A stretch of 55,174 bases of DNA from an uncultured Pseudomonadota bacterium (lineage in GTDB: Bacteria > Pseudomonadota > Gammaproteobacteria > Methylococcales > Methylomonadaceae): the NCBI GenBank assembly GCA_903928965.1, contig CAIYSZ010000077.1:1-55174 (forward strand). Reading direction: 5' to 3'. The notes beneath the pieces were generated by a model that saw only the letters and a program-made list of their open reading frames with translations, was not told the origin of the DNA and searched no databases. Both the position numbers and the translations under genes were made by a program. Shown here in pieces: positions 44,282 through 49,135 of the stretch (position 1 is the first letter of the stretch; the number at the start of each line of letters is the position of its first letter).

Positions 44282-45480
44282 AATTTAATTCCCTCGTATT
44301 GCGCGATAGTTTGCATATCCTTGTCGCCGCGTCCCGACAAATTGACGATAATGATTTGATCCTTGGCCATGGTTGGGGCCAACTTGGAGACATAGGCCAT
44401 AGCGTGGCTGGACTCCAACGCCGGGATAATCCCCTCCATTTTGGTCAGCGCGTGAAAACCGCCCAAAGCCTCTTCGTCGGTGATGCTCACGTATTGCGCG
44501 CGGCCGGAGTCCTTCAACCACGCATGTTCAGGACCTACGCCCGGATAATCCAGGCCGGCGGAAATTGAATGCGTCTCAATAATCTCGCCGTCGTCATCCG
44601 CCATCAAATAAGTTCGGTTGCCGTGCAGCACACCCGGCCGGCCGGCGCTCAACGGCGCTGAATGGCGGCCTGTCTCAATCCCGTCGCCGGCGGCCTCCAC
44701 TCCGAACATTTTGACTCCGGCATCGTCGATAAACGGATAAAACAAACCAATCGCGTTGGAACCGCCGCCGACGCAAGCCACCAGCGCATCCGGCAGCCTG
44801 CCGGCTTGCTCCAGGCATTGCTGCTTGGCCTCGCGCCCGATCACCGCCTGAAAATCCCGCACCATCGCCGGATACGGATGCGGCCCGGCCACGGTGCCGA
44901 TAATATAAAAGGTATGGTCGATATTCGTCACCCAATCGCGCAAAGCCTCGTTTAAGGCATCCTTTAGCGTTTTAGAACCCGACTGCACCGGCACAACCGT
45001 CGCCCCCAGCAATTTCATCCGGTAGACATTCAATGACTGCCGCGCCACATCCACCGCGCCCATGTAAACCACGCACTCCAACCCCAGACGCGCCGCCACG
45101 GTGGCGGTCGCCACCCCATGTTGGCCGGCGCCGGTCTCGGCAATGATTCGCGTCTTGCCCATGCGCTTGGCCAACAAGGCCTGACCCACGGTATTATTCA
45201 CCTTATGCGCGCCGGTATGGTTCAAATCCTCGCGCTTCAAATAAATTTGCGCGCCCCCCAGCTCCCGGCTCCAACGCTCGGCATGGTACAAGGGCGACGG
45301 CCGGCCGACGTAATGCTTTAAATCGGCGTCCAATTCGGCGACAAAATCCTGGTCGCTTAAATAATGCTGATAGGCCTGGTTTAATTCAGTGATCGCCGGC
45401 ATTAGCGTTTCCGCCACGAAAATACCGCCATAAGGCCCGAAATGGCCTAAGGCGTCCGGCATATCGTATTTAGCTGTCAT
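44278..45480 (-). CDS. trpB: Tryptophan synthase beta chain
   Basis: A 400-residue PLP enzyme that condenses indole with serine. The PLP lysine is in [15 protein letters not shown], the catalytic Glu in [11 protein letters not shown], and the phosphate loop is [10 protein letters not shown]. Length and motifs match the TrpB1 form that pairs with TrpA, and trpA overlaps it downstream. Its own start overlaps the trpF stop by four bases, so trpF-trpB-trpA are translationally linked. Confidence 0.98.
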
Positions 45481-46109
45481 GTTATTCTAATTGTTTGATA
45501 GGTTTTACTCAAAAATTCGGCCATCTTAGCCGGGTCCTTTATTCCCTTGGCCGCCTCCACCCCGCTGCTGACATCCAGCGCATGAGGATGAACCGCCGCG
45601 ATGGCCGCCGCCGCGTTATCCGCACGCAAACCGCCGGCCAAAATCACCGGCAAGGTCCGCAGCCTGGGAACCAGGCTCCAATCGAAACCGCCGCCGGTTC
45701 CGCCCCGCGCGCCATCCGGGACATAAGCATCCAGCAATAAACCGCGCGCGTCCTGATAACTTTGTTCGATTTCCGGGTAATTGAGTTCCGGCCGCATGCG
45801 TATCGCCTTAATATAAGGTTTCCCGTAACGCCGGCAATCCTCAGGACTCTCGTCGCCGTGAAACTGCAAACAATCCAGCGCCACCTCTCGCAACACCTGC
45901 TCCACATACGCCGGCTCGGCGTTAACAAACAAACCGGTCACGCCGACAAACGCCGGCAAGGCCGCGACGATGCGCCGCGCCTGCTGCAACTCGACGAAAC
46001 GCGGACTCCCTTCATAAAATACCAGGCCAATCGCATCCGCGCCCAACGTCGCCGCGCTCACCGCATCCTCGACCCTGGTAAAGCCGCATATTTTAACGCG
46101 AGTTCGCAT
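45477..46109 (-). CDS. trpF: Phosphoribosylanthranilate isomerase
   Basis: A 210-residue TIM barrel that isomerises N-(5-phosphoribosyl)anthranilate in tryptophan synthesis. The catalytic Cys is in [13 protein letters not shown], the conserved LQFHGDE strand and the LAGGLRADN phosphate site are present, and the general acid is the Asp of ALDVSSGVE. The start at ATG 46109 has GAGG six bases upstream; longer versions lack similarity. It heads the trp-acc-fol-pur-met cluster and borders the DnaA-box region. Confidence 0.95.
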
Positions 46110-46135
46110 CATCCGCCTCATAAAAAAGGCTGTGT

Positions 46136-46144
46136 AGCATACCA
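46136..46144 (-). promoter_or_regulatory. Possible extended -10 promoter for trpF
   Basis: On the minus strand TGGTATGCT (46144-46136) fits TGn plus a -10-like TATGCT, about 27-35 bases before the trpF ATG. There is no convincing -35 and no trp attenuator or Trp-rich leader peptide. Confidence 0.28.
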
Positions 46145-46217
46145 CAGTCCCCTAATAATGCCTCGCCCATTTTTCTTAATCCGAAAGCCGGCACTACACA
46201 GACCGCTACCCACAAAC

Positions 46218-47199
46218 TTATCCACACCCGCCATGATAAACGATAAACCTCCGCCGCCGGCTGCAACCGGCCCGCTCCTTAAACCGCCCCGCCCCGGCAC
46301 GCTACAAGCAAGCGCTCGCCAACAAATCGCACCTACAAAAATAATCAACAACTTAAAAAACAAACCTCAAGTAAAATACAATAGTATCCGCTAAACCCAT
46401 CCGATTGACTAATTTGTAAACAATCCGTCAAAATTCACCGCTCGGCGGCAACTTAGCATCCCAGCGCACCGCTTGCCCACAAACTTATCCACAGCTTTTG
46501 TGGATTAACCCCCATAGCAACGGCATCCCAAAACCACGCATGACAACCGACCGTCTGGCAAAAATGTAATCAATCTGTAACAAGACCAAGCAGCGCAAGA
46601 AGCTACCTTCTAAGCCCACCCGTTACCCACAAACTTATCCACAGCTTTTGTGGATTAACCTCCATAGCGACGGCATCCCAAAACCACGCATGACAACCGA
46701 CCGTCTGGCAAAAATGTAATCAATCTGTAACAAGACCAAGCAGCGCAAGAAGTTACCTTCTAAGCCCACCCGTTACCCACAAACTTATCCACAGCTTTTG
46801 TGGATTAACTCTCATAGCGACGGCATCCCAAAACCACGCATGACAACCGACCGTCTGGCAAAAATGTAATCAATCAGTAACAAGACCAAGCAGCGCAAGA
46901 AGTTACCTTCTAAGCCCACCCGTTACCCACAAACTTATCCACAGCTTCTGGGGATAAGCCTAACCGCCGCCCGCCCCAGCAACGCCGCCTCGCTCAATAG
47001 TGGGTCCCCAAGTCCGGGCGCCGCCACTCGCCCCATAGCCCACAAAAAGTCATATACAAATCATTTAGTTAGATTAAAGCATTCAAATCAGCAATAACAC
47101 ATTTCGCCAAGCGAAATCAATCGCGACCAACCCGACCCGCGCCGACTATCCAACTAAAATCAAGCGCATCGCTACCACCAATGCACAAACTTATCCACA
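46218..47199 (+). promoter_or_regulatory. Cluster of six perfect DnaA boxes
   Basis: TTATCCACA occurs at 46218-46226, 46485-46493, 46635-46643, 46785-46793, 46935-46943 and 47191-47199, all in the same orientation. Each is preceded by CACAAAC, giving a shared 16-mer CACAAACTTATCCACA even in the two boxes outside the repeats. Inverted near-boxes follow the four middle ones: TGTGGATTA (46499-46507 and the equivalent places in copies 2 and 3), and TGGGGATAA at 46949-46957. TTATCCACA is the high-affinity DnaA site of E. coli. Confidence 0.75.
46476..46957 (+). repeat. 150-bp tandem repeat, three copies plus a partial fourth
   Basis: Copies at 46476-46625, 46626-46775 and 46776-46925 have an exact 150-base period with only a few substitutions. 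A fourth copy is limited to the first ~25-30 bases (46926-46957), the part with the DnaA box. Each unit holds one DnaA box, its inverted near-box and a conserved AAAATGTAATCAATCTGTAA tract. No reading frame runs through the array. Confidence 0.95.
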
Positions 47200-47349
47200 G
47201 CTAACATCCCCTCCCAAATGCCCCAAATCTATCATCAAATCCAAAGCCAAGGCATATAAAAGTACCGTACAAAACCAGACATCCAAAAGCCCAGATATCT
47301 GCAACACCAGATACCTGACAATCTCACGCCGCGACACAAAACTGCTGCG

Positions 47350-47550
47350 TCACTCATCCACTCCCAAGCGCCTGTCCCGCTGCAACGGCCACGGCGAGAA
47401 CGCAAACACCCAGATCATAATAATATTGACGACGGGCACCAACAAAATCAGCCCCCACCAACCGTCAAACCCCGCCTTCTCCGCCACTTTATAGGCCAAG
47501 GCCAAACAAAAAATCACGAAAAACGGCAATAGCAGCATAAAAAAATCCAC
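47350..47550 (-). CDS. Small two-helix membrane protein
   Basis: A 66-residue protein with two hydrophobic segments (about 3-20 and 30-52) joined by KVAEKAGFDGWWG; the second helix ends FAFSPWP. This GF-x-GWW-x-LxLxPxxN style occurs in many short uncharacterised bacterial membrane proteins. It lies three bases after a paralogue of similar size (47554-47748) with matching KAG...LPGFGLFL and EWP positions. The role is unknown. The right edge of the DnaA-box region lies just beyond its stop codon. Confidence 0.65.
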   Translation of the reverse strand: MDFFMLLLPFFVIFCLALAYKVAEKAGFDGWWGLILLVPVVNIIMIWVFAFSPWPLQRDRRLGVDE

Positions 47551-47553
47551 GGC

Positions 47554-47748
47554 CTACCCCCTTTTGCCCGATCTGACGTTCGGCCATTCCGTATACGCCA
47601 ATTGCAACAACACCAAAAACAAACCAAACCCCGGCAAAAATACCAAGGCCGCCCACGCCGGATTCAAACCGGCTTTTTTGTATATAAAAAACACCGGCAC
47701 CGCAATCATCATGCCGACTATCATTGCCTGCATAAACTCAGGAATCAT
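47554..47748 (-). CDS. Small two-helix membrane protein, paralogue
   Basis: A 64-residue protein with hydrophobic segments at about 6-23 and 30-50 separated by YKKAGLNPAWAA, ending AYTEWPN. The layout parallels the next gene downstream (KAG, aromatic/Trp, Pro in helix 2, then WP), so the pair probably arose by duplication and may form a hetero-oligomer. A GGGAGGG sequence directly before ATG 47748 selects that start over a GTG four codons upstream. It follows tilS on the same strand. Confidence 0.62.
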   Translation of the reverse strand: MIPEFMQAMIVGMMIAVPVFFIYKKAGLNPAWAALVFLPGFGLFLVLLQLAYTEWPNVRSGKRG

Positions 47749-47779
47749 AATCCCTCCCACATTTCAACAATAACTCCGA

Positions 47780-49135
47780 CTATAGCTCAAACCCGTCCGC
47801 CACGCCGTCAACAAGGTCCACGGGCAGCTCGCGCTCCCAGCTTACCTGAAAACACTCACCCTCGCCGCGCCAGGCCCAACCCGCCACCCACAAGCCGGCC
47901 ACCGCCGCCAAGCGTCCGTCGATATACAACAGCGGCCTAGCCTCACGCTCCCACGGCGGCGTAGCCGCTTCCTGGAACAAACGCTTCAAATTATGGCTGC
48001 CGTCACGCCTTGGCAATTGCAGGGTTTCCCCGCCGCGCCGCCGCCGCAAACAAATCCGGCCCTGCCGCCAAATCTCGCCGCCAATACCGGACTCCGCCGC
48101 AAACACCGCCAAGCGGTAACCGTTGCTCAGCGGCAAAAACGCTTGCCCCGCCGGCCAATCCTGCTCAGCGAACCCGGAAGCAATGCTAGCGGGTAGACAA
48201 TACAAACGCGCACGGTAACGCCGGATCAGCCGATCTCCTAAACGCCATTCAGGAAGCGCATCCTCACGCGCAATAAGCATCTGGCTCAACAAATCCCGTA
48301 GCCGCGCTTGCGCCGGCGACTGTAAACCAAAGCGCCGCAACCAAAGGCGCAACACCCAGGCTTGCCGCTCCGGCTCCAACGCCGACAAACTCCGCAGACA
48401 TAAACTAAGGCCGTCATCCAGCATCAAACTCAATTGATCTGACAAGCAAGCGTTTAATAGACGGTCGGCTGCGGCGCAATGTTCCGCGCTCCGCGACACG
48501 GTTTTATCCATGCGCGGCCAACGCTGCTTCAACAGCGGAATGACATGCATGCGCAAGAAATTACGATCAAACCCATCATCCGCGTTACTGGGGTCCTCCA
48601 CCCAGCGCAATGCGTGCCTACCCGCGTAAGCCAACACCTCGCTTTTCGGCCAATCCAACAACGGGCGCAATACTCGGCCCGCGCCGAAATCAGACGCGAC
48701 AGGCATCGCCGCCAAACCCGCCAGCCCTCCGCCGCGCGCCAACTGCAACAACACCGTCTCCAACTGATCCTCGCGATGCTGCGCCAACAACAACACATCG
48801 CCTGAGCGCAATAAAGGACGCAACGCGGCATAACGCGCGGCCCGCGCCGCCGCCTCCGGACTTTCCCCCGGCCGCGCCCTAGCGTCAACTCTGATCGCCT
48901 GAAAATCCACCCTCCAGTCCGCGCATTGCCGGGCGCAAAACGCCAACCACTCGTCCGCGGCGGCCTGCAAGCCATGATGCACGTGCACCGCGCTCAATCT
49001 GGCGCGCAATTCCGGCTCGGCGGCGGCCCAATGCAACAAAACTTGCGAATCCACGCCGCCGCTGTAACCGATATAAATCCGCCCGCAATCCGCCGGCAAA
49101 TACCCGCTCAAGCGCCGCTCACCCGATTCCGCCAT
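47780..49135 (-). CDS. tilS: tRNA(Ile)-lysidine synthase
   Basis: A 451-residue enzyme that converts C34 of the CAU-anticodon tRNA-Ile to lysidine, changing both its charging and its decoding. The PP-loop is YSGGVDSQVLLHW near residue 24, followed by VHVHHGLQAAADEW and the AQHREDQLETVLLQLARGGG motif. The TilS substrate-binding and C-terminal domains follow (about 220-440). It lies downstream of accA, a neighbour in E. coli as well, but a strong terminator separates them. Confidence 0.95.
   Translation of the reverse strand: MAESGERRLSGYLPADCGRIYIGYSGGVDSQVLLHWAAAEPELRARLSAVHVHHGLQAAADEWLAFCARQCADWRVDFQAIRVDARARPGESPEAAARAARYAALRPLLRSGDVLLLAQHREDQLETVLLQLARGGGLAGLAAMPVASDFGAGRVLRPLLDWPKSEVLAYAGRHALRWVEDPSNADDGFDRNFLRMHVIPLLKQRWPRMDKTVSRSAEHCAAADRLLNACLSDQLSLMLDDGLSLCLRSLSALEPERQAWVLRLWLRRFGLQSPAQARLRDLLSQMLIAREDALPEWRLGDRLIRRYRARLYCLPASIASGFAEQDWPAGQAFLPLSNGYRLAVFAAESGIGGEIWRQGRICLRRRRGGETLQLPRRDGSHNLKRLFQEAATPPWEREARPLLYIDGRLAAVAGLWVAGWAWRGEGECFQVSWERELPVDLVDGVADGFEL

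Follow-up and report, generated by a model that had tools for sequence, protein, structure and literature searches.

A putative tandem array of four DARS-like DnaA-box modules between trpF and tilS in an uncultured Methylomonadaceae bacterium

Results

The DnaA-box locus and its neighbors

The window examined here, 55,174 bases, is an entire contig (C77) of a 3.25-Mb assembly that is 92% complete. On it a DnaA-box locus lies upstream of trpF, in the gap between trpF (PRAI, PRA isomerase; 45477..46145, minus strand) on the left and tilS (47780..49135, minus strand) on the right. No clear gene was found in this gap; three open reading frames of at least 80 aa reach into it, and none has a Pfam match at E≤1e-5. 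Two short minus strand open frames, 47350-47550 and 47554-47760, lie between the array and tilS and appear hydrophobic by eye. Rfam and tRNA scans of the window returned no matches. Two tracts are rich in A+T, 46320-46440 (67%) and 47040-47110 (70%), compared with 46% for the window. In relatives that have trpF and tilS on one contig the genes are never adjacent, the closest pair being ~47 kb apart by eye, so the gap has no orthologous gap with which it can be compared.

Six exact copies of TTATCCACA, the only ones in the window, occur on the plus strand at 46218, 46485, 46635, 46785, 46935 and 47191. Inverted near-boxes, TAATCCACA and TTATCCCCA, occur on the minus strand at 46499, 46649, 46799 and 46949. 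The initial annotation had reported the gene-free gap, both AT-rich tracts, the six boxes and the inverted near-boxes, and all were recovered here. It had also judged the box density to be far beyond chance. The density is above chance (mean 0.20 and maximum 2 in 100 shuffles), but the count is inflated by tandem duplication. A tandem repeat with a period of 150, 3.2 copies and 97% matches extends over 46476..46955 (plus strand) and holds the modules described below; the apparent copy number of its units is that of a metagenome assembly. Units 2 and 3 are identical at 146/150 positions. Unit 1 is diverged (115/150), and unit 4 (120/150) runs out of the repeat. Judged by these identities, unit 1 is the older copy and units 2-4 are recent copies. 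Because four of the six boxes sit in the repeat they are not independent, and the six represent roughly two to three independent occurrences, multiplied by duplication. Duplication inflates the box count but not the structure within each unit.

A three-box module in each unit

The initial annotation missed a partner box that lies 3 bp upstream of each perfect one. The partners, CTACCCACA, TTGCCCACA, TTACCCACA (three times) and CAATGCACA, have 1-3 mismatches to TTATCCACA. In 4/4 units box III is followed after 3 bp by box II and, after another 5 bp, by inverted box I. The unit reads TTRCCCACA-AAC-TTATCCACA-GCTTY-TGKGGATWA, that is, a near-box, a perfect box and an inverted near-box. All six perfect boxes of the window are box II, while in the units box III is one or two mismatches and box I one mismatch away from TTATCCACA. 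DARS-like core 1, TTGCCCACA-3-TTATCCACA-5-TGTGGATTA (III-II-I), is located at 46473..46507 and matches 24/27 consensus positions. Cores 2 (46623..46657), 3 (46773..46807) and 4 (46923..46957, with TGGGGATAA as box I) each match 25/27, and all four are on the plus strand. No 35-mer with at least 19/27 was found in 300 Markov shuffles of the locus, compared with four at 24-25 in the window. Two incomplete plus strand modules, CTACCCACA-3-TTATCCACA at 46206..46226 and CAATGCACA-3-TTATCCACA at 47179..47199, consist of a III-like box and the perfect box, both modules lacking box I and a Fis site at -66.

Predicted Fis and IHF sites were examined next to the cores, using for Fis the consensus GNNYANNNNNTRNNC given in PMC8682772. 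An exact Fis match, GACTAATTTGTAAAC, starts 66 bp upstream of core 1 (46407..46421), and Fis-like sites with one mismatch occupy the -66 position of core 2 (GGCAAAAATGTAATC, 46557..46571), core 3 (46707..46721) and core 4 (46857..46871), all on the plus strand. From left to right, each unit holds a Fis-like site, a 51-bp interval and three DnaA boxes arranged as in a DARS core. For IHF we scored matches to WATCAANNNNTTR, which we take to be the consensus. An IHF site at -98, a common position across the class (see below), is present in 0/4 window units, where the best match between -84 and -103 has 4 mismatches. An exact match, AATCAACAACTTA, 130 bp upstream of core 1 (46343..46355, plus strand) lies off the class-wide position and may be due to chance; 0.07 exact matches are expected in the shuffled locus. 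A weak IHF-like sequence with one mismatch, AATCAATCTGTAA, at -55 of core 2 (46568..46580, plus strand) overlaps the Fis-like site and is copied in units 3 and 4 (46718 and 46868). Altogether there are five IHF matches with at most one mismatch at the locus versus 1.04 expected, a weak excess as three of the five are copies. We infer binding of Fis and IHF, here and below, from such consensus matches.

Comparison with E. coli DARS and datA

Published descriptions of the DARS core give it three boxes, spaced alike in DARS1 and DARS2, of which box I is opposite in orientation to boxes II and III and head to head with box II (PMC5742627, PMC8682772). The window modules have the order, orientation and spacing of the DARS1 and DARS2 cores, with gaps of 3 and 5 as checked on MG1655. 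In that genome, where we take DARS1 to be located at bioD-uvrB and DARS2 near mutH, DARS1 reads TAATACACA tgg TTATCCACA ggaat AGTGGATAA and DARS2, in the rppH-ygdT gap, reads TTCTTCACA act CTATCCACA gaaaa GGTGAATAA, both with the same core geometry. As a check on the identity of DARS2, the two IHF-like sites beside the core near mutH are 3 bp apart (-87 and -71), in agreement with the 3 bp given for IBS1 and IBS2 in PMC4245941. DARS2 spacing is described as conserved among E. coli-like species (PMC5742627, PMC4245941), and many proteobacteria have similar sequences according to a review (PMC10380432). A blastn search of E. coli genomes with the 35-base module yielded three partial matches, none over 80% of the query. 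A similarity search that gives partial matches only is therefore the wrong tool, and geometry is needed. The E. coli DARS sites are reportedly known biochemically and are two single copies.

The window differs from E. coli in several respects. DARS1 is a single copy, whereas there are four copies in tandem in the window, with a Fis-like site beside every one. In the 420 bp upstream of the DARS1 core there is no IHF match with one mismatch or fewer, and the Fis consensus is absent from -66. A DARS1-type element is defined by a core with no IHF or Fis requirement; the window units have the core and lack IHF at -98. In DARS2, too, the Fis and IHF sites lie beside box III; the order there is core, IHF (-71, -87) and an exact Fis match at -125, beyond IHF. 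In the window units a Fis-like site is at -66 in 4/4, and the IHF site at a conserved distance on the box III side is absent. Because the core feature is present and the IHF feature of DARS2 is absent, the modules are called DARS-like, not DARS2. The locus resembles E. coli datA as a non-coding DnaA-box cluster away from oriC. The datA region itself has only a partial III-II-like pair (18/24 positions) without box I at the threshold used. A datA element has a single IHF site set among several DnaA boxes; at the window locus the IHF matches are weak and the geometry is that of DARS. The initial suggestion of a datA- or DARS-like element is thus supported for DARS by the III-3-II-5-inverted I spacing shared with DARS1 and DARS2, while datA, with its partial III-II pair, is the less apt comparison.

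Conservation of the module

With fixed gaps and at most three mismatches the module was found in 56/61 genomes of the genus and order, and the reversed control in 0. When both gaps were left free (0-30), the 61 genomes gave 77 rows, with 61 at (3,5), 6 at (3,17) and 10 spread over nine other gap combinations, in part second readings of a place already counted. Of the (3,17) rows, five are from G046 and one is from G057; they resemble a four-box form (gaps of 3, 3 and 5), seen in G057 and, as an array of three, in G046 (L172, C1:1550380-1550978). In an even sample of the class, 146/370 genomes match the free-gap (0-20) pattern. Of 150 matches listed, 124 are (3,5), 12 are (1,5), some of these being second readings of a (3,5) place, and 14 are others; the II-I gap is 5 in 149 of the 150. 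The minority (1,5) form (G249, G314, G332, G140) has CACA 1 bp before box II, not 3. The free-gap reversed pattern had 0 matches in the 61 genomes and in the 370-genome class sample. Spacer letters vary between modules, and the spacing is fixed.

At least 117 stretches in a named collection matched the fixed pattern. Eighty were fetched, of which 75 had 220 bp on both sides; other analyses of the named loci, with shorter flank limits, took in 77 or 76 loci. Going by their labels, the loci are presumably gamma- or betaproteobacterial or from unspecified Proteobacteria, except L058 (Planktophila) and L104 (Alphaproteobacteria), both of which are metagenome bins. Allowing one mismatch, Fis is found at -65..-67 in 49/75 loci and IHF at -97..-99 in 34/75. 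Both are present in 23/75, while 26/75 have no Fis-like and 41/75 no IHF site there. Seven shifted positions gave 0-4 for Fis and 0-1 for IHF. By single offset, the Fis consensus occurs at -66 in 42 of the 75 loci with at most one mismatch and in 20 exactly, versus 1.08 and 0.17 per offset, and IHF, in one orientation, at -98 (19), -99 (12) and -97 (3) versus 0.25 per offset. Since Fis piles up at -66 and IHF at -98, the common form in the class is core, Fis, IHF, with Fis and IHF in swapped order relative to E. coli DARS2. The center of the Fis-like site is 86% A+T compared with 51-52% around it (76 modules). Some class-wide modules (L055, L084, L121) also have a TTAG-like motif ~20 bp upstream of box III.

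In 11/11 single modules of relatives examined, a Fis site with no more than one mismatch is found between -65 and -67. IHF is found at -96 to -100 in 20/26 single modules, orthologues being counted apart, from a set of 27 chosen locus ids with scores of at least 24 from relatives and the source genome. The six without it are L183, L184, L036, L009, L012 and L029.

Other modules and arrays

The source assembly contains only six modules at three or fewer mismatches, at three loci. The module between htpG and queA on contig C109 is canonical-looking, with a 27/27 core, an exact Fis match at -66 and an exact IHF match at -96. On contig C33, a module that precedes an MFS gene and guaA has an exact Fis match at -66 and no IHF match (up to two mismatches) between -84 and -103; a one-mismatch match lies at -123. 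This copy is 72% identical over 106 bp. A second, incomplete pair on C33 has a Fis site with one mismatch. Among the loci fetched, single modules recur in the same gene gaps of different Methylomonas, three in dsbB-priA (L173, L174, L175), two in rdgC-darP (L176, L177) and two on the guaA side (L178, L179). By eye, many single modules lie within about 300 kb of dnaN.

Eight other Methylomonas genomes have three modules, 165-178 bp apart, in a gap between epimerase and ABC transporter genes. These triple arrays were found at 7/27 epimerase loci fetched (22 from the genus and 5 from a single genus of a different family, each searched over 1.5 kb to the left and to the right) and in G029, whose contig has the ABC gene and no epimerase hit. 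Compared with the proteins of G027, all seven other genomes have a flanking ABC protein that matches at 78-84%, and six of them an epimerase that matches at 58-70%; by these flanking genes the triple arrays are orthologous. When the eight were aligned, the columns conserved in seven or more coincided largely with boxes, Fis-like sites and IHF-like sites. The sequence TGTTGAAAA downstream of the third module is kept across orthologous arrays (L165-L171). IHF-like sites are located at -42 in 20/24 modules, and Fis-like sites at -66 in 13/21 modules examined, all first or second modules, a count that leaves out the eighth array (L200). The array of three in G046, a genome of another genus, is more widely spaced.

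The triple arrays share the geometry of the window array, but they are at a different locus, their modules are diverged, and they have IHF-like sites at -42. The possibility that both are one locus that moved was considered and is not shown by their similarity, which is at box level only. The epimerase had no hit in the source genome at E≤1e-30. Arrays are therefore found at two unrelated places in the genus, and that of the window is the youngest-looking.

Location of dnaN, dnaA and GC skew

The initial annotation observed that the usual origin neighbors are absent from the window. Of these, dnaN and gyrB are found on contig C42 (as dnaN-recF-gyrB, by Pfam) and dnaA on contig C92. Upstream of dnaN-recF-gyrB are three perfect boxes within 240 bp together with AT-rich DNA, and this cluster is likely oriC. 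The cluster and its genes (L035) lie behind an AI-2E family transporter gene; dnaA (L001 1192-2511; L213) is beside rdgC, apart from dnaN. The relative G027 has dnaA next to dnaN, separated by AT-rich DNA, and no TTATNCACA-form box in its first 5 kb. GC skew changes sign at dnaN in G027, G018 and G021, from between -0.031 and -0.051 on the left to between +0.017 and +0.064 on the right; G014 has 0.0 on the left and +0.032 on the right. Skew on C92 has one sign across dnaA. The skew on C42 alone is too weak to prove that the cluster is oriC.

Discussion

Is the locus an origin, as the initial annotation had proposed in suggesting an origin set apart from dnaA? The box density and the AT-rich tracts are what such an origin might show, and dnaA is indeed separate from dnaN in the source genome. 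Skew in the window is near zero from about 51 kb and slightly positive beyond 52 kb (+0.024, +0.012), so that the cumulative minimum within the window falls near 52-53 kb, ~5 kb right of the locus. Right of that minimum 3 kb of sequence are left, with GmrSD-like and HipA-like genes; skew after 50 kb, the region of these genes, is -0.031. Over 1-50 kb, however, skew is -0.176, and it is negative on both sides of 46.7 kb with no sign change at the locus, contrary to what the proposal of an origin would lead one to expect. This strong negative skew over 1-50000 is seen even with plus strand genes, and skew in the dnaN region is weak by contrast. The oriC-like cluster with its AT-rich DNA precedes dnaN-recF-gyrB on C42, where skew is -0.034 on the left and +0.006 on the right, weak but with the sign seen at dnaN in 3/4 relatives. 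The boxes of the window, moreover, have DARS geometry. An oriC separate from dnaA is therefore unsupported at this locus, and we regard it as extremely improbable.

The structure of the units suggests a different function. The locus is probably a tandem array of four DARS-type elements of a Fis type that would regenerate ATP-DnaA and perhaps also titrate DnaA. By analogy with E. coli biochemistry, ADP-DnaA, which a DARS binds in preference to ATP-DnaA, would bind boxes II and I head to head, plus box III. Fis would bend the flank, leading to release of ADP, and apo-DnaA would leave and take up ATP, so that more ATP-DnaA would be available for oriC. With four units together the DARS dose at this place would be expected to be higher, and DnaA may additionally be held by the array as a reservoir. 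The source genome encodes a DnaA 58% identical to that of E. coli and an Hda-like protein with an Hda_lid domain. Because the IHF site at -98 is missing, the sequences suggest that the window units are not IHF-gated, unlike the htpG-queA copy on C109, and may act as DARS1 does in E. coli or with Fis only.

Other explanations of the array were weighed against DARS-type function. With 12 boxes in four modules and two incomplete pairs within 1 kb, the array could be a pure titration site that sequesters DnaA without nucleotide exchange. Neither a fixed spacing of 3 and 5 bp nor a head-to-head box I nor a phased Fis site is required for titration, and it is just these features that are conserved, which makes titration alone unlikely. 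The local tandem duplication, the dispersal of similar modules in relatives and the similarity of the C33 copy would also be seen if a dispersed REP- or MITE-like repeat that happens to hold DnaA boxes had been amplified locally. The small number of modules in the assembly argues against such a repeat, as does the constancy of the spacing where the spacer letters differ, with the same geometry in E. coli DARS. Module positions also recur between species (dsbB-priA, rdgC-darP and the guaA side), which suggests vertical inheritance, and we consider a mobile repeat very unlikely. Finally, since the array is upstream of trpF, it might regulate trpF transcription as a DnaA-controlled promoter region, or form a terminator or hairpins; 46000-47900 contains 9 terminator-like and 4 promoter-like matches versus shuffle means of 3.7 and 1.8. 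But none of the terminator-like stems (0/9) is the II-I palindrome, and modules elsewhere adjoin unrelated genes. A role in trpF expression thus seems highly improbable.

Among the matches listed in a literature search that covered titles and the beginnings of abstracts, with subscription papers outside its scope, there were no tandem DARS arrays and no methanotroph DARS. The evidence is evenly poised on a broader proposal, that Gammaproteobacteria, including the beta lineages, have a third DARS architecture, core-Fis(-66)-IHF(-98), which Methylomonas has repeatedly arrayed at unrelated loci. IHF would have come to lie at -42 in one array type and be missing in that of the window, and the dose and wiring of DARS, IHF-gated or Fis-only, would be tuned by copy number. 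If this is true, the fixed class-wide layout and the natural tandem arrays would provide simple material on ADP release driven by Fis and IHF, and the arrays would allow one to test whether DARS dose sets the timing of initiation.
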